This document shows positions 23,272 to 32,683 of a DNA stretch of 33,529 bases, one piece after another. The stretch is from IMG/VR virus record IMGVR_UViG_3300024518_000021, positions 1 to 33,529 of that record; one strand, written 5' to 3'. The notes under the pieces were generated by a model. It had not been told where the DNA came from. It searched no databases and saw nothing but the letters and a program-made list of their open reading frames with translations. Each line of letters starts with the position of its first letter. The stretch's first letter is position 1. This DNA is from a virus. A program made the translations under genes and the position numbers.

Positions 23272-24306
23272 GTGAGGCGTAGAAAGATCCCCCCGGCAGT
23301 TCTGAAGTACACCGCAAAGCTGGCCGAAGAGGGCCGGCTTTCAGAGGCGGGAATCGGACGCGCCTTGCGCGAGAAGTTTCCCAAGGTGTGGGAGGAAAGC
23401 ATATCCCCCCGCTCTATTGCCATAGCAGTCAAGCGCAGGGCGGACGAGGAGGGGACCCCGATCCCCTTCTCGCCGCGCACTAGCGGCGGAAAGATCAGCG
23501 ACCCCAACCGCCGCTTCCCAGACGAGACGCCCGAGCTGCGGTTCGAGTACATCCCGCGCCTGGGCATTTTCTCTGATGTTCACTGCCCGTACCACAACAA
23601 GAAGGGCGCCGCGCGCCTTGTGCAGGTGATCGAGTCGCGCGAGATAGAACAGCTGCTGTGGAACGGCGACCAGCTCGATAACGGCTACAGGGGGCACAAG
23701 GGGATCAGGGACGAGCGAGCAGCCACGTTCTCCGAGGGGCTGCACGCCTGGGCGTCGCTGATGGACGAGCTGACCCGCGCCGGCATCCGGCGGCATATCA
23801 TCATTCCAGGCAATCACGATGACAAGCCCTACCGGCAGACCGACGGAGAGATCACATTCTCCGAGTTCATCAAGGCCAAGGTGTGGCCCCTGCTATCCGA
23901 GCAGGGCGTCGAATGGCTGACCACCGATCGCTATTACGCGATAATGAAACCGGCGAAGCCGGTCGCGCAATGGCCGTTCGTCAGCGAGAACTTTCCCTGG
24001 AGGTTCACGCATCAGAAGAACTTTTCCAAGATCCCGCTTCGAGTGGCCAAAGAGCTCGCGTCCATCCATATGATGAACATCGCCACGGGCCATCAGCATC
24101 ACCTGGCCAGGGGCAAAGCCCTAAATGCTATGCTGCGGCTGATCGATTGCGGCACCGGCTGCGATCGATCCTTGCAGGCGTACATCGGTGACCGGGACTC
24201 TGCCCACGCTCAATGGGGCGAGGGCTTCGTAACGCTGGAGAACGGCTCCCCCCGACTTTGGGACTTCGGCGAGCCCGACGAGTGGTGGGAGCGCGAGCTC
24301 GCATAA
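23272..24306 (+). CDS. Calcineurin-like metallophosphoesterase with N-terminal HTH-like part
   Basis: The 344-residue protein shows all core motifs of the family: GIFSDVH (D102, H104), NGDQLDNG (D133), PGNHDD (N181, H182), and GHQHH (H274, H276). Residues 1-60 form basic helices including LSEAGIGRALREKF, which could be an HTH for DNA or protein binding. Family members hydrolyse phosphoesters in DNA, nucleotides or proteins with two metal ions; the substrate here is unknown. GTG 23272 follows AGGGGTGACC. It is the last gene before the control region, and is separate from the Mre11-like domain encoded at 27126. Confidence 0.85.
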   Translation: MRRRKIPPAVLKYTAKLAEEGRLSEAGIGRALREKFPKVWEESISPRSIAIAVKRRADEEGTPIPFSPRTSGGKISDPNRRFPDETPELRFEYIPRLGIFSDVHCPYHNKKGAARLVQVIESREIEQLLWNGDQLDNGYRGHKGIRDERAATFSEGLHAWASLMDELTRAGIRRHIIIPGNHDDKPYRQTDGEITFSEFIKAKVWPLLSEQGVEWLTTDRYYAIMKPAKPVAQWPFVSENFPWRFTHQKNFSKIPLRVAKELASIHMMNIATGHQHHLARGKALNAMLRLIDCGTGCDRSLQAYIGDRDSAHAQWGEGFVTLENGSPRLWDFGEPDEWWERELA

Positions 24307-25394: not shown

Positions 25395-25753
25395 TGGCCG
25401 CCATCAGGGCCAGCGAGGTCTGGCTGGCTTTCGGCCAGGACGACCTATTCCGCCCAGCTAGCCGCACCACAGATCCGGAAACATCCCATTCCGCCGAGCG
25501 CGAGGTCAACCTCTCGGGCCGGCGGTCTACCCAGTGTAGCGCGGTCGAGGACGACGTCCTCGCGCACAACGGGGCCACGGCCGGCGAGATCGCTCGCCGT
25601 ATCGGTCTCGACCGCCACACCGTCAGCAAGCGCACGGCCGATCTCGCAAATCAGGGCCGCATCCACCGCGGCCCCACGCGCGTTTGTCTCGCTAACCACC
25701 GGGCAATGTTGTCGTGGTGGATCCACTCCCAGGAGGAAACCAGTGACCAGTAA
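25394..25753 (+). CDS. Winged-helix DNA-binding protein
   Basis: The 119-residue product carries TTDPETSHSAE (26-36), a short motif found just ahead of winged helices in many phage proteins. The segment EDDVLAHNGATAGEIARRIG and LDRHTVSKRTADLANQGRIH (52-91) then forms a MarR/GntR-type winged helix with a wing near 90-100. ATG 25394 shares its A with the preceding TGA; GTG 25391 is the in-frame alternative. It lies early in the replication block and could be a regulator or part of a replication-initiation complex. The end overlaps the next gene by 11 bases. Confidence 0.7.
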   Translation: MAAIRASEVWLAFGQDDLFRPASRTTDPETSHSAEREVNLSGRRSTQCSAVEDDVLAHNGATAGEIARRIGLDRHTVSKRTADLANQGRIHRGPTRVCLANHRAMLSWWIHSQEETSDQ

Positions 25754-26831
25754 AGCGCTTTCAATCCAAGCCCAGGTGGGCGATTCCAAGATCACAGTTC
25801 CGCTCGATCGTCTCGTGAATGGGCGGCTACTCGCCGAGGAGCTCATGCGCCCGGCGCCTCCCGGCTTTGTCGCGAATCATACCGTCGTGACCATCAGCGA
25901 CGCGACGCTCGACTGGGGATCGAAGAACGAGAACCCCGACCTGCACAAGATCAAGGGCGGGGGAGCAGACTACACGTGGGCTTTTGTTAAGCGCTGCCTG
26001 TCGCCTCACGGCGTCGAGGAGGCCGGCTCCCAGGTCAAGTCCATGGTGATCAACGATAAGCCGGGGCTGTGTGTTACGGCCGCCTGCCGGCGCCGCCGCT
26101 TCGGCGAGCCCGACGAGGTCGCCTATGGGAACGCCGCCGAGTCGTTCGCCATGGCGATCGAGAAGGCCAAGCCGCGCGATGGTTACAAGTCCGAGGGCGA
26201 TCAGATCGACGTCGCCCGCGTGATGGTCAAGCGGCTGACCAGTGAGGCGTTCAAGGCTGCCGCGCGGAAGCTGCTGCAGCTCCCAAAGGCCGACCCATCG
26301 ATCGTCGGGAAGGCTCTCGCGTTTCGTCGGGACGTTCTCGATATTCACAACCCCGAGATGCAGCGATACGCTTTCGAGAAGGCCACGGCCGCGGCGTCTG
26401 ATCTGTTCGGGGGCGGCTCGATCGGCCCCGGCATCGACGAGGCTATCGAGGTCGAGACCATAATCCTTGACGATCAGGACGAACCGGGGCGCGCGGACGA
26501 CGGCGAGACGTCCGCGCAGGTGGCGGGGGGGGCGGATCCGTTCGCGATTTCCTCCTCGGGCGGTGACCTCTCCGCCACCCAACCTATCGAATCCCTGGAC
26601 CTGCCCGAGTGGGCTCGCTCCTGCGCCCGAGACGAGCTCGGGGATCCTCGATGGGAGACCATCACCGTCGCTCAGCTGGAGATCACGCTGCGCGCGCGTC
26701 TTCGCTCTACCCAGTACGACTCAGCCGGCGACCCGGCCGGACTCATTCCCGCCGGCAAGGCCGGAGACTGGGCGGTCGTCGCTGACAAGCTCCTGGCTTT
26801 CGAGCGGAAGGGGGGCGGCGCCAATGCGTAG
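25743..26831 (+). CDS. Unknown 362-residue protein, possible recombination partner
   Basis: I do not recognise this family. The first 150 residues look alpha/beta (TVVTISDATLDWGSKNENPD, YTWAFVKRCLSPHGVEEAGS, then AACRRRRFG and AAESFAMAIEKAK). Residues 155-225 are helical, a low-complexity acidic linker spans about 235-290, and a small helical domain ends the protein (about 295-362). The beta-then-helix core plus acidic linker recall single-strand annealing proteins, and it is encoded just before an SbcCD-like nuclease, as annealing proteins often are. This is a contextual guess. GTG 25743 is behind AGGAGG at good spacing. Confidence 0.7.
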   Translation: MTSKALSIQAQVGDSKITVPLDRLVNGRLLAEELMRPAPPGFVANHTVVTISDATLDWGSKNENPDLHKIKGGGADYTWAFVKRCLSPHGVEEAGSQVKSMVINDKPGLCVTAACRRRRFGEPDEVAYGNAAESFAMAIEKAKPRDGYKSEGDQIDVARVMVKRLTSEAFKAAARKLLQLPKADPSIVGKALAFRRDVLDIHNPEMQRYAFEKATAAASDLFGGGSIGPGIDEAIEVETIILDDQDEPGRADDGETSAQVAGGADPFAISSSGGDLSATQPIESLDLPEWARSCARDELGDPRWETITVAQLEITLRARLRSTQYDSAGDPAGLIPAGKAGDWAVVADKLLAFERKGGGANA

Positions 26832-27129
26832 ACAGCAATTCCCCCGGCCGGTCGTCTACCGGATCGAAGATCTCAGCGAGCCGCGCGAGCTGGCCCCGGC
26901 CACCACGCTACGGGATCGCGTCTATTCGGCTCTGACCATCATGGCCAGGCCGATTCACACATCAACGGGGCGCATAGGGCGCGTAAGCGTAGGCTACGAG
27001 CGCGTTCGGTTCCTCTCCGGGCAGTTCGGCGTCACGTCCCATCAGATCCGCAAGGCGGTCGAAGGGCTCGCAATGCGGGGCGACATCACCTATCTGGGCG
27101 CAGAGGCCCGAGAGGCGGTGGAGTCGTGA
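26824..27129 (+). CDS. Small winged-helix protein
   Basis: The 101-residue product has a basic start and a winged-helix-like region: LRDRVYSALTIMA (29-41), then VRFLSGQFGVTSHQIRKAVE with GLAMRGDITYLG (61-92), ending in a wing. It overlaps the preceding gene by 8 bases and the SbcDC fusion gene by 4 (GTGA), so these three are co-translated. It could steer the neighbours to DNA ends or regulate the operon. The function is not known. Confidence 0.65.
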   Translation: MRRQQFPRPVVYRIEDLSEPRELAPATTLRDRVYSALTIMARPIHTSTGRIGRVSVGYERVRFLSGQFGVTSHQIRKAVEGLAMRGDITYLGAEAREAVES

Positions 27130-30100
27130 AAATTCTACACATCGCCGATGTTCACTTCGGCAAGAACAGCCTTGACGATCTCCGCGAGCCCTGCGATCGG
27201 ATCTTGGAGCTCGCAGACGGCGTCGACCTGGTCGTGATCGCGGGAGACCTCACCGTCGACCGCGGCGTGATCGACAACGCCAGCGCGCTAGCCTGCCGGA
27301 CGTTTGTGGAGTCGCTCGCGGAGCTCGCCCACGTCCTAATAACTCCAGGAAACCACGACCTGAGCCACCACGCCGACCAGCCGAACAACGTGGCGGCAAT
27401 TCTGAGCGATCGACTCGGGCCTACCAACGAAAACGTGCAGGTCATTGATACGCCGCGCGTGGTCACGCATGGCGAGGCCGCGCTCGCGGTCATTCCCTAT
27501 CCGTCCGCCGCATTGTTCCACGCGAACACGGGCGAGACTTCTCTAGAGTCGCTCAATGAGCGACTCGCACAGCTGAGCATCGGTCTCGCGGCGGAGGCGG
27601 TGGCGACGGGCAGGGTGCCGCTGCTGGTCTACCACGGGACCGTCGAAGGTGGCCGGCATGGCGACGAGCGCTCCCCAGCAATGCTGACGCGCGGCACGGA
27701 CGTCGTGCTTCCAACGGCAGCGCTGGCTGGCTTCCAGGGCGTTCTTGCCGGCCACCTTCATCACCCGCAGACAATCCAGGCGCCCGACGGTCTGGTCGTC
27801 TATCCCGGTTGCGTAGCGCCAAACACTTTCGGCGAGCGCGGGATCGAGCCGACCGCCGTGCTATGGGAGGTCGGGGCCGGGGGCGTCTCGCACGAGAGGC
27901 TTCTCCTCCCCGTCACGCATCAGCGCATCCAGGTGGACGTCGGGGCCGACGACTGGGACGCATCGAAGGATGCAACCCTCAACCTCAATAGCTGGATCGA
28001 GCGGGCGGGCGACGACATCGGGGCGGCCCGGGTCAAGGTTTCGGTGACGGCATCGAAACAGCGCCTGGAGCTCCTGACGAACGACGCGGCCGAGGTGGCG
28101 CGGGCGAAGTACAACCTCAAGGAACTGCGCCTAGAGCGGACGACGATCCCCGAGCACCGCGGCGTGCTCGACGAGAGCGCCGACCGCGCGAACCGCGTCA
28201 ACATCCCCGAGGCCCTGGCGATCTACGCAGAGCAATGCGAAGACCCCGAGTTCTCGCGGCACCTCGATGAGATTCAGGAGGTGGCCCGAGACATCGAGGG
28301 GCTGGTCGAACAGCAAGACAGTGACCCGCGTTACGAGTTCGAGCCGCTGCAGATGCGCCTGGAGAACTACAAGTCGATCGCGTGCGCAAAGGTCGACTTC
28401 GAGAAGCTCCCGGATCGGTTCGGCGTGTTCGGGCCAACCGGGATCGGCAAAAGCAACCTGATGTTGGGGCTATTCTGGCTACTCTATGGGGTCAATCCCA
28501 AGAGTGAGGACGGCAAGGCGAAGACGTCCCTGGGCGAGATGGTCCGGCGGGGAGAAAAAAAGGCCGGCGGATTCCTACGGTTCCGGTGTCGGGCCGGTGT
28601 CTTTGAGATAACGCGCGTGATCACCCGCAGCGCGAAGACGGGGCAGGGCACCGGCAAGCTGTTCCTGACTCGCAAGGTCGCCTGGGTGCCCGTCCCGCTG
28701 AACGAGGGCAACGCCCGGCAGACGCAGCAGGCCATTCTAGGTCTGGTCGGGCCGCCGGAGCTCACCTGGCTGACGCGCCACCTCCGCCAGCATGGCGAGA
28801 GCGCGGTCAAGATGGGGGCGAGCCGCCTGGCTGATTCCATCAATAGCACGTTGCAACTCGACTTCGAGGCCCGTGCGGAGCTCGCCAAGGGGCGCCGAGA
28901 CCGCGCGGCGCACGCATCGGACATCGCAGGGGCGCAGGCCGAGAAGCTCCAGGAGCAGCTGCCATCGGATGCTTCGATCCGCGAGGCCGAGAAACAACAT
29001 GGCTATGACCTGACGCGCGCGAAGGCCGCCTACGAGCACGGGGTCGGTGAGGTCGAGGCGATGGACGCCGAGCACGTGGCCAAGGTCGAGAGGTTGGCCA
29101 GGATTGACGCCAGGGCCGAGCGAGCTGAGCGCCTGGCGCTGCGGCGGCGGGACGTGGCCAAGGAAAAAGCCTCTTGTCAGCACTCTTGGGACCGGGTTCG
29201 GCAGGAGCTGGAACTACTGGGGGACGTGCCAGACCTGACGGAGCTGGTGGCCGCACGGGACGAGTCTTTCGAGAAACTCCAATACTCCAGGGCGCGGCTG
29301 CACGACCTGCGGGAGCAGCACAGCATGCTCCAGCTGGGAGAGTCAGAAGCGCTCGGGGGGCTGCGGCAGTCTGAGACGGCCGCGCTCAGCGCGCGCGACG
29401 CCGCCGCTTCGGCCCTGGTCGTCGCCCGCCGCCGCCTGAGCGATGCCGCTGCATCTGCCGCGTTGCTCGGGGAGGTGCCCTGCGACGGCGCCCGGTGGGC
29501 AAGCATCGAGCCGGGGCTGGGGATCACAGATATGTCCGGTTGCCAGCTCCTCTCCGCTGCCATCGACGCAAGCGAGAAGCTGCCCGAGCTCGATCAGGCC
29601 ATCATTGACGGCGAGGAGCGGCTCGGCAACGCAGATGCGGACTACCTCGTCGCCACCGAGCTGTGTACCAAGTTCCTAGCCTCGGCCATTGAGGCCGAAG
29701 AGGGCAGGAGCGGCGAGCTCGCTACCCTGGACGCTAGTGTGGTTCTGAATATAGCGGCCCACGAAGCCGCCGTTGCCGACCTGGTCGACCTGAGCCACGC
29801 CGCGGACAAGAAGGCGGCCCTTCGGGCCGAACGGCTGGAGTGTGAGCCCAGGTTAGCCCTGGCCCGCCGCCATCTCGACGAGATCGACGGCGAGCTGATG
29901 GGGGCCGAGGGGCTGGTCGAGGAGGCCGCGCAGCTTCGGGACGTCGTCGCTCGGAGCAACGCTCAGCGAGTCGAGAGCCAATTGGTGCTTAGGGGGTTCG
30001 CGGCGCAGATCGCCACCGCCGAGGCCGGCCTAGAGCACGTCGCTGGAGCTCGGAAGTCCCGCGCGCAGATGCTCCTGCAGATAGAGGTTCTACTCAACAC

Positions 30101-30644
30101 GCAGACGGCCGAGGACCGCCAGCGCATGGCGGCGTCGTACTACCTGCAATCGGTCCAGCGTAACGGGATCCCGTCGCTACTCCTGGAGCGGCTCGCGCCG
30201 ATCCTAGAGCTGCGAGTCAACGAGATTCTGATTCCCTGCGAGCGGCAGATTCGGATCGAGACCCTACGCACGACCACCACGGGCGTGACACGGGCCGAGG
30301 TCAACCTGCTGTTTCAGTCTCCAACCTCCCAAGGCGAGTGGATTCCCATCGCCGAGCTGAGTGGGGGAGAGGAGGACATCGCGAACGCTGCCTGGGCTGT
30401 TGGCCTGGCGCAGACCGCGGCGGAGATGAGCGGGACCGGCCTGGAGCTGATAGTGCTCGATGAGCCGTTCACTGGGGTCAGCGCGGAGTACGCCGAGGCC
30501 GTCCGGGACGTGCTCGGCAACATCCAGCGCCACGTCCCCCGCCTCTGTATCATTACACACAAAGAGGACCTGAAGCCGATGGCCGGGGCTGTTCTCCAGC
30601 TCTCGCAGAACGGTGACGGCGTTCATATGGAAGTAGAGAGATAA
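27126..30644 (+). CDS. Single-chain SbcD-SbcC (Mre11-Rad50) nuclease-ATPase fusion
   Basis: One uninterrupted 1172-residue protein carries both halves of the SbcCD complex. Residues 1-260 are SbcD/Mre11: IADVHFG (D8, H10), IAGDLTVD (D41), PGNHDLSH (N76, H77), YHGTVEG (H170) and GHLHHP (H210, H212). About 270-400 is a capping/linker region. Residues 405-1172 are SbcC/Rad50: RLENYKSI, Walker A GPTGIGKS (436-443), two long coiled coils (about 585-780 and 810-990), a hook with C786 and C806, signature LSGGEE (1078-1083), Walker B LIVLDEPF (D1112, E1113) and H-loop ITHKED (H1145). Such complexes open and trim DNA ends and hairpins. Phages normally encode the two halves separately. GTG 27126 overlaps the prior stop as GTGA. 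Confidence 0.93.
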   Translation: MKILHIADVHFGKNSLDDLREPCDRILELADGVDLVVIAGDLTVDRGVIDNASALACRTFVESLAELAHVLITPGNHDLSHHADQPNNVAAILSDRLGPTNENVQVIDTPRVVTHGEAALAVIPYPSAALFHANTGETSLESLNERLAQLSIGLAAEAVATGRVPLLVYHGTVEGGRHGDERSPAMLTRGTDVVLPTAALAGFQGVLAGHLHHPQTIQAPDGLVVYPGCVAPNTFGERGIEPTAVLWEVGAGGVSHERLLLPVTHQRIQVDVGADDWDASKDATLNLNSWIERAGDDIGAARVKVSVTASKQRLELLTNDAAEVARAKYNLKELRLERTTIPEHRGVLDESADRANRVNIPEALAIYAEQCEDPEFSRHLDEIQEVARDIEGLVEQQDSDPRYEFEPLQMRLENYKSIACAKVDFEKLPDRFGVFGPTGIGKSNLMLGLFWLLYGVNPKSEDGKAKTSLGEMVRRGEKKAGGFLRFRCRAGVFEITRVITRSAKTGQGTGKLFLTRKVAWVPVPLNEGNARQTQQAILGLVGPPELTWLTRHLRQHGESAVKMGASRLADSINSTLQLDFEARAELAKGRRDRAAHASDIAGAQAEKLQEQLPSDASIREAEKQHGYDLTRAKAAYEHGVGEVEAMDAEHVAKVERLARIDARAERAERLALRRRDVAKEKASCQHSWDRVRQELELLGDVPDLTELVAARDESFEKLQYSRARLHDLREQHSMLQLGESEALGGLRQSETAALSARDAAASALVVARRRLSDAAASAALLGEVPCDGARWASIEPGLGITDMSGCQLLSAAIDASEKLPELDQAIIDGEERLGNADADYLVATELCTKFLASAIEAEEGRSGELATLDASVVLNIAAHEAAVADLVDLSHAADKKAALRAERLECEPRLALARRHLDEIDGELMGAEGLVEEAAQLRDVVARSNAQRVESQLVLRGFAAQIATAEAGLEHVAGARKSRAQMLLQIEVLLNTQTAEDRQRMAASYYLQSVQRNGIPSLLLERLAPILELRVNEILIPCERQIRIETLRTTTTGVTRAEVNLLFQSPTSQGEWIPIAELSGGEEDIANAAWAVGLAQTAAEMSGTGLELIVLDEPFTGVSAEYAEAVRDVLGNIQRHVPRLCIITHKEDLKPMAGAVLQLSQNGDGVHMEVER

Positions 30645-31360: not shown

Positions 31361-32132
31361 GAAGTTCGCCATGATTCGGGTCGGCTTGCTCGATCATATG
31401 GGGCTTCTGGGGCGCAACCCCGATGCTGCCCTCGTCTACCTATGGTGCCACCTCCAGACGCCGCTGCAGGGCTCACGGGCGGGCACGGTGCCCGTTCATA
31501 TGGGGACGCTCGGGGAGCGTCTTGGGTGGTCACGGCAGCGGGTGGGTCGGGCGATGCGTTGGCTTCGGATGAACCCAACAGAAGATGCCCCTTGGATGGT
31601 CCAGGTGACGGCCGCCGGCCGGGATCGCGGAGCGGACTACTACATCCGAAACTACGACGGATCACAGCCCAACTCAACGGATCTCGATGTTACGGAAATG
31701 AACATCGAGAACAACTCTCGATGTAACGGATCTGAACATCGAGCCGACATCTCGATGCGGCCTCGATGTTACGAATCTGAACATCGAAGCGAGTTAGCGC
31801 CGCTTCAATGTTCAGAATCTGAACATCGACAATCCTTATATACGCGCGCGTCTGAAGAACAAGAGTCTTCTAGAATAAGAAGGGTAGTTATGGAATCGAA
31901 TCAGGGGAAAAGAGAAGCAGGAAAAACCATCTTTGTGGGCACGAACGAGGAAGCAAGGCAGGAGCTGGCCAAGCTCCCCCACATCGCAGCGATCCAAGGG
32001 GACGACAATCGGGAGCTGGCGATCGACGTCGCAATGCAGCACCTCGACGCCTACGGAATCGCAATCGACCCGGACAAGGACCCGGCCGCGGAAGCAGCGA
32101 CCGTGCCCGGCTGGAAGGATCCTTTCGCATGA
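31347..32132 (+). CDS. Winged-helix replication initiator (lambda O-like layout)
   Basis: The 261-residue protein has an N-terminal winged-helix domain (about 22-105): NPDAALVYLWCHLQTPL, then VHMGTLGERLGWSRQRVGRA and a wing ending in ADYYIRNYDG. Residues 111-165 are low-complexity and translate the iteron array (repeated SEHR). A C-terminal part (about 180-261) would contact replication partners. This order, DNA-binding domain then origin repeats then partner domain, is that of lambda O. GTG 31347 lies behind GAGGAGG; the upstream ATG 31311 lacks one. No helicase or primase gene accompanies it, so the host's helicase would be recruited. Confidence 0.82.
   Translation: MGRGKKFAMIRVGLLDHMGLLGRNPDAALVYLWCHLQTPLQGSRAGTVPVHMGTLGERLGWSRQRVGRAMRWLRMNPTEDAPWMVQVTAAGRDRGADYYIRNYDGSQPNSTDLDVTEMNIENNSRCNGSEHRADISMRPRCYESEHRSELAPLQCSESEHRQSLYTRASEEQESSRIRRVVMESNQGKREAGKTIFVGTNEEARQELAKLPHIAAIQGDDNRELAIDVAMQHLDAYGIAIDPDKDPAAEAATVPGWKDPFA
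31683..31830. repeat. Four 27-bp palindromic iterons: probable replication origin
   Basis: Repeats lie at 31683-31709, 31717-31743, 31762-31788 and 31804-31830. The first has arms CTCGATGTT and AACATCGAG that pair perfectly around 9 bases; the others keep the arms with one to a few changes (e.g. the second has CTCGATGTA, the fourth TTCAATGTT). The middle reads ACGGATCTG or close variants. A half site (CTCGATG) is at 31751. Spacing of starts is 34, 45 and 42. The stretch just downstream (about 31831-31925) is the most AT-rich of the gene (TTATATA, TAGAATAAGAAGG), a likely unwinding element. Confidence 0.85.
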
Positions 32133-32683
32133 TCATCCTAGGAATCGATCCATCGATCCGCAGCGGGACCGGCCTGGCCGTGGTAGACACGACCCCGAAC
32201 CGCCCCAGGGTCATAGAAACGTCAGTAATCAAGTTGAGTACCAAAGAGCTCAGCGAGTGGGACTCGAATCGAAGGGAAGCATACATCGCTCACGTGGTCA
32301 GCGACTGGGTCCGGCCCTTGACGTTCTCCGCGGTCGCCATCGAGTGGCCCATCGAGCATAACCAGGTGCGGGCCTACAAACGGGCAGACGGAACCATCGG
32401 GACCAGGCTCCCATCGAGCCACGGCCAGTGGCGCCTCCTGGGGCGCCTGTGCGAGCGGCTGGAGCCGTTGGCCCGAGTGGTCCCCGTAACGCCTGGGGAG
32501 GCTAAGGCGGCCTGTGGGGTGCCTCAGAACGCAAAGCACAAGCCGGTGTCCGAGGTGCAGCGCATCACAGGCCATCAGCTGCACAAGGAATTCAAGTATG
32601 CCCAGGAGGCAATCGCGGACGCAATCGCGATCGCTCTCGCTGGATCAAGCAAGATCGAGCTCGAATATATGCGAGCTCTGTAA
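32129..32683 (+). CDS. RuvC-type Holliday junction resolvase
   Basis: The 184-residue product has the RNase H-like resolvase core: ILGIDPSIRSGTGLAVVD (D7), FSAVAIEWP (E72) and QEAIADAIAIALAG (E160, D164), with spacing like bacterial RuvC. It would cut branched DNA from recombination or replication before packaging. It starts in an ATGA overlap with the initiator gene and ends the early block. Phage RuvC-like proteins can have broader branch specificity than the host enzyme; that is not visible here. Confidence 0.9.
   Translation: MIILGIDPSIRSGTGLAVVDTTPNRPRVIETSVIKLSTKELSEWDSNRREAYIAHVVSDWVRPLTFSAVAIEWPIEHNQVRAYKRADGTIGTRLPSSHGQWRLLGRLCERLEPLARVVPVTPGEAKAACGVPQNAKHKPVSEVQRITGHQLHKEFKYAQEAIADAIAIALAGSSKIELEYMRAL

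Follow-up and report, generated by a model that had tools for sequence, protein, structure and literature searches.

The window analysed here is the whole 33,529-nucleotide stretch of IMG/VR virus record IMGVR_UViG_3300024518_000021, a fragment of a tailed phage that carries genes for terminase, portal, head morphogenesis and amidase; the fusion gene and the module genes around it lie on the plus strand. A gene for an SbcD-SbcC (Mre11-Rad50) fusion occupies positions 27126-30644 and encodes a protein of 1172 aa, here called P0001, from a GTG start, with no internal stop over 1172 codons before the stop codon at 30642-30644. The start codon shares bases with the upstream ORF's stop codon (GTGA), a typical layout of translational coupling. 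Residues 2-213 matched Pfam Metallophos (5.8e-12) and residues 2-239 matched NCBIfam TIGR00619 sbcd (3.9e-13, under its curated cut-off), with further matches to AAA_23 (residues 410-506) and, below its cut-off, SbcC_Walker_B (residues 1075-1130). A search against phage families assigned the two halves of this one chain to PHROG 100 (SbcD-like, 7.9e-19) and PHROG 77 (SbcC-like, 5.1e-22). The order is that of Mre11/Rad50 fusions, nuclease first and Rad50-type ATPase second in a single open frame. The frame and the family matches confirm the claim of the earlier note that one intact polypeptide with both complete halves is encoded at this position. Because the NCBIfam sbcd and sbcc equivalog scores are significant and far below the curated cut-offs, the fusion is best described as a distant superfamily member rather than an equivalog of cellular SbcCD.

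A lost stop codon or a frameshift during sequencing or assembly could in principle have joined overlapping sbcD and sbcC genes. The two genes of a split phage pair may share a few bases, as in contigs L011 and L153, so that a single indel could fuse them, and Listeria phage LMTA-57 (KJ591605) has one recombination exonuclease CDS (59527-62466) where sister Listeria phages have two genes. The LMTA-57 CDS may itself have arisen by a recent fusion or through a sequencing error. In the window, however, GC content by codon position (approximately 0.7/0.4/0.8) was steady along the whole frame, including positions 28200-28350, and nothing in it, at the junction included, points to a frameshift. Neither of the in-frame start codons close by (GTG at 28281 and ATG at 28353) has ribosome-site-like sequence before it at a usable distance. 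Moreover, we found the same full-length fused frame (1111-1174 aa, 20-26% identity) in five other IMG/VR contigs, L007, L008, L057, L089 and L009, two of which (L007 and L008) encode an identical fusion protein and come from different metagenomes. Recurrence in divergent contigs from separate metagenomes is not what a random frameshift would produce, and we consider an artefact extremely improbable. Judged by sequence comparison, the fusion is real, the relatives that carry it speaking against an assembly error.

The earlier note had taken SbcD and SbcC to be separate genes throughout bacteria and known phages, and had implied a novelty that would fall if such fusions were already common and described. 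Both points gave way, as a fusion class of Mre11/Rad50 with thirteen cases was published in 2011 (Yoshida, Claverie and Ogata 2011, PMC3175470) and our scans found fusions to be common in IMG/VR and BFVD. The hosts listed in 2011 include Mimivirus (R555), Bacillus phage 0305phi8-36, a C. kluyveri plasmid, a Deferribacter megaplasmid, bacteria and eukaryotes (PMC3175470); no later survey turned up in the literature searched. Searches for related loci with P0001 alone, or with the lobe I stretch alone, retrieved no relatives, and alignment-based patterns were needed. We therefore scanned IMG/VR with patterns derived from alignments and then with three home-made profile HMMs (nuclease, lobe I and lobe II), which yielded 76 near-full-length viral fusion ORFs including that of the window, 59 of them non-redundant at 85% identity. 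In BFVD, the best matches of the full structural model were single viral chains of approximately 970-1420 residues, aligned across more than 1200 columns; they include proteins of Tupanvirus, Yasminevirus, Catovirus, Tetraselmis virus 1 and the Tenacibaculum phages pT24 and PTm1. Microcystis phage Mel-JY01 has a fusion annotated as one 3.2 kb CDS. A tblastn search of named phages and plasmids gave only weak matches to the nuclease half, mostly from split SbcD genes. All 78 loci listed by a scan of cellular genomes, which is a sample and not a census, were split, none being fused; cellular Mre11/Rad50 fusions are published (PMC3175470). Fusions of this kind are thus common and, in viruses and plasmids, have been on record since 2011; the window adds one more.

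To place the window fusion among the others, we built a quick maximum-likelihood tree from the nuclease and both ATPase lobes (76 rows). It grouped with L009, L007 and L057 (support 94) in a clade of its own and is only approximately 15-20% identical, across the alignment, to the other groups of viral fusions; its row is a long branch, so its exact position is unsure. L089 was placed in the same clade by BLAST score. The fused label required four changes on the tree, at least three of them forced by well-supported branches, which indicates that fusion (or fission) arose several times, in agreement with the 2011 study (PMC3175470).

Every phosphoesterase and ATPase motif named in the earlier note was located in P0001. 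The Mre11-type metallophosphoesterase core (residues 1-260, 27126-27905) has the metal ligands and the catalytic His and Asn of SbcD/Mre11 nucleases (D8, H10, D41, N76, H77, H170, H210 and H212) and an Mre11 fold (Z 29). The SbcC/Rad50 motifs are likewise all present: lobe I (residues 406-564, 28341-28817) contains Walker A (GPTGIGKS, residues 436-443, 28431-28454) and the Q-loop (Q555, 28788-28790), and lobe II (residues 1015-1172, 30168-30641) contains the signature (LSGGE, residues 1078-1082, 30357-30371), Walker B (LIVLDE, residues 1108-1113, 30447-30464) and the H-loop (H1145, 30558-30560). Across the 59 non-redundant fusions these residues are invariant or nearly so, except H210, G1081 and E1082. 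Position 210 is H in 33 fusions and D in the remaining 26; Mimivirus R555 has the Asp, whereas P0001 keeps H210. When the third and fourth signature residues were checked, G1081 was kept in 30/59 and E1082 in 51/59. Many viral fusions, those of L007, L057, L009 and L058 among others, have SGF, SGS or SGM in place of the SGG of the ABC signature.

According to the earlier note, a linker at about residues 270-405 replaces the C-terminal domain of SbcD. AlphaFold models and PDB alignment indicate instead that this region is that domain. A prediction of the full chain (59-row alignment; pLDDT 79, pTM only 0.50) showed nuclease, cap, helix-loop-helix (HLH), Rad50 lobes and coiled coil, and the N-terminal 405 residues modelled alone gave the same fold (pLDDT 87). 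Between the nuclease and Rad50 parts, the models place a capping domain with a beta-alpha-beta-alpha-beta order (residues 267-340, 27924-28145), a flexible joint (residues 341-359, 28146-28202; pLDDT under 50 at 342-355) and the predicted Rad50-binding HLH of SbcD (residues 360-397, 28203-28316); confidence in the cap and HLH is fair to good. Rad50 lobe I opens with a strand at residue 406, leaving a true inter-subunit linker of only about 8 residues (398-405, 28317-28340).

The best PDB matches of the fusion models were Mre11-Rad50 complexes and SbcD. E. coli SbcD (4lu9) aligned to residues 1-338 of the N-terminal model (Z 29.1, 312 residues), SbcD within the E. coli SbcCD complex (6s6v) to residues 1-395 (Z 27.4, 356 residues, rmsd 7.8), and Thermotoga Mre11 in the Mre11:Rad50 complex (3qg5) to residues 1-399 (rmsd 19.3). 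These two large rmsd values fit a modelled HLH that is placed differently relative to the nuclease. In profile alignment, the N-terminal 372 residues were collinear with cellular split SbcD (E 2.5e-48). Residues 256-405 alone matched cellular SbcD weakly in hhalign (probability 4.5, pairwise E 0.009), so the assignment of this stretch to cap and HLH was decided by structure prediction. Cellular split SbcD is approximately 380 residues long after trimming, compared with 405 for the SbcD stretch of the fusion. The cap, the HLH, the SbcD-like length and the collinear profiles together indicate that a whole SbcD is joined to a whole SbcC through about 8 residues, close to the gap of 9-12 residues derived from the Thermotoga complex in 2011 (PMC3175470). 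Most of the 2011 fusions were argued to retain the capping and HLH region as P0001 does, and they share with it the one-chain domain order, the nuclease motifs and the ATPase lobes around a coiled coil (PMC3175470).

Cleavage after translation, perhaps in the low-confidence flexible stretch at residues 342-355, or an internal start yielding free SbcC would give an ordinary two-chain enzyme with excess ATPase. Two in-frame codons lie near the beginning of the Rad50 part, a GTG at 28281 directly after AGGAG and an ATG at 28353. However, AGGAG abuts the GTG without a spacer and makes a poor ribosome site, GTG386 falls within the HLH, ATG410 lies in the strand that opens lobe I, and the fused state is common to all relatives found in the clade of the window. 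We regard this alternative as unlikely, and take P0001 to work as a single chain.

Between the lobes, AlphaFold predicts an antiparallel coiled coil (residues 565-1010, 28818-30155) with a putative zinc hook at its apex, C786-X19-C806 (29481-29543). The zinc hook of Rad50/SbcC is usually CXXC. The 19 residues between the apex cysteines of P0001 compare with 14 in L057, 8 in L007, 8 in L089 and 4 in L009, and with 6-7 residues in 42 of the 59 non-redundant fusions. P0001 differs from the fusions described in 2011 in this hook, in its own clade, in the retained H210 and LSGGE signature and in its small-genome phage.

The fusion gene is surrounded by genes that recur in its relatives. In L007 the fusion is preceded by the gene for a PHROG 13782 protein and followed by genes for a DnaD/O-like initiator and then a RuvC-like resolvase. 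All four genes have homologues in L089, in an unchanged order, and L057 has the first two. In the window, a gene for a 362 aa PHROG 13782-like protein lies upstream (25743-26831), and the fusion is followed by a gene that by position is initiator/helicase-loader-like (31371-32132) and by one for a RuvC-like Holliday junction resolvase (32129-32683). The upstream product had no Pfam or PDB match; its homologue in L057 (25% over 258 residues, E approximately 5e-13), encoded immediately before the fusion, weakly matches PHROG 13782. The product of 31371-32132 has weak similarity to its L007 counterpart, which matches DnaD-like and O-like PHROGs. The window's module genes downstream of the fusion have diverged too far from those of L007 and L089 for a match in BLAST, so conservation of the module rests on order, size and family assignment. 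On this basis, the surroundings of the fusion appear to be a conserved recombination-replication module. In the window, a partial genome, none of the genes was identified as a recombinase. In four phages a PHROG 13782-like gene precedes the fusion immediately or nearly so (25743-26831 in the window, 4751-5911 in L057, 4604-5776 in L007 and 4858-5985 in L089); it is a possible recombination partner. A second metallophosphoesterase gene (PHROG 221) is present at 23272-24306, separate from the fusion.

Weak PADLOC matches raised the question of whether P0001 might be a nuclease of defence or counter-defence and not an enzyme of replication or recombination: mad3 matched lobe II (1.9e-12), and residues 1-84 were matched by PDC-S60 (1.8e-6), a model of 1027 positions. 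However, both matches are confined to shared ABC-ATPase or phosphoesterase motifs, the phage SbcC and SbcD PHROGs match P0001 more strongly, and the fusion gene is flanked by replication and recombination genes in several phages. A defence role therefore seems quite improbable, and P0001, from a tailed phage with a small genome, is probably an active single-chain Mre11-Rad50 (SbcDC) nuclease that processes ends, comparable to T4 gp47/gp46. T4 gp47/gp46 and other phage SbcD/SbcC pairs comprise the same subunits with the same presumed role in recombination-dependent replication, encoded by two separate genes rather than one. E. coli SbcCD shares the fold of nuclease, cap and HLH, the ATPase motifs and the coiled coil with P0001 at approximately 20% identity, and differs from it in that P0001 is one chain with hook cysteines 19 residues apart instead of CXXC.

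From the intact motifs, the domain order with cap and HLH, and the conserved gene neighbourhood, we infer how P0001 would dimerise, dock its HLH in cis or in trans, cut DNA and serve the phage. Two chains would pair through their nuclease domains, with ATP sandwiched between the Rad50 heads. Each SbcD HLH would sit on the coiled-coil base as in a two-chain complex, with the 8-residue linker leading into Rad50 lobe I. Whether ends or hairpins of DNA reach the Mn-dependent nuclease would be controlled by the binding and hydrolysis of ATP, and resected ends would feed phage recombination or recombination-dependent replication, as with T4 gp47/gp46. Cutting of the junctions would then fall to the RuvC-like resolvase.

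In Mre11-Rad50 complexes made of two chains, the HLH is already bound to the base of the Rad50 coiled coil, so a short link between HLH and lobe I should change little. The expectation in the earlier note that fusion would constrain the opening motion finds no support in the model, in which a joint (342-355) separates the cap and HLH and the link is only about 8 residues; the nuclease could presumably still swing at this joint. Ordinary Mre11-Rad50 chemistry is accordingly expected, in which ATP gates Mn-dependent resection and cleavage of ends or hairpins. Compared with two genes, the fusion contributes fixed stoichiometry and co-inheritance.

More tentatively, this phage lineage may carry a single-gene resection machine in a fixed operon, in which the PHROG 13782-like partner would be a single-strand annealing protein or DNA-end adaptor working with the initiator and RuvC, and the fusion would act in cis, its zinc hook being enlarged and variable, with 4 to 19 residues separating the cysteines. 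The locus corrects the natural assumption that phage homologues of Mre11 and Rad50 are always encoded by two genes, offers a compact MR enzyme whose single chain fixes a 1:1 stoichiometry and which would serve as a convenient model for structural and biochemical work, and points to the gene at 25743-26831 as a candidate for a recombination protein. Apart from these points, the fusion is ordinary for viral genomes; its less ordinary features are the 19-residue gap between the hook cysteines and the linked gene module.
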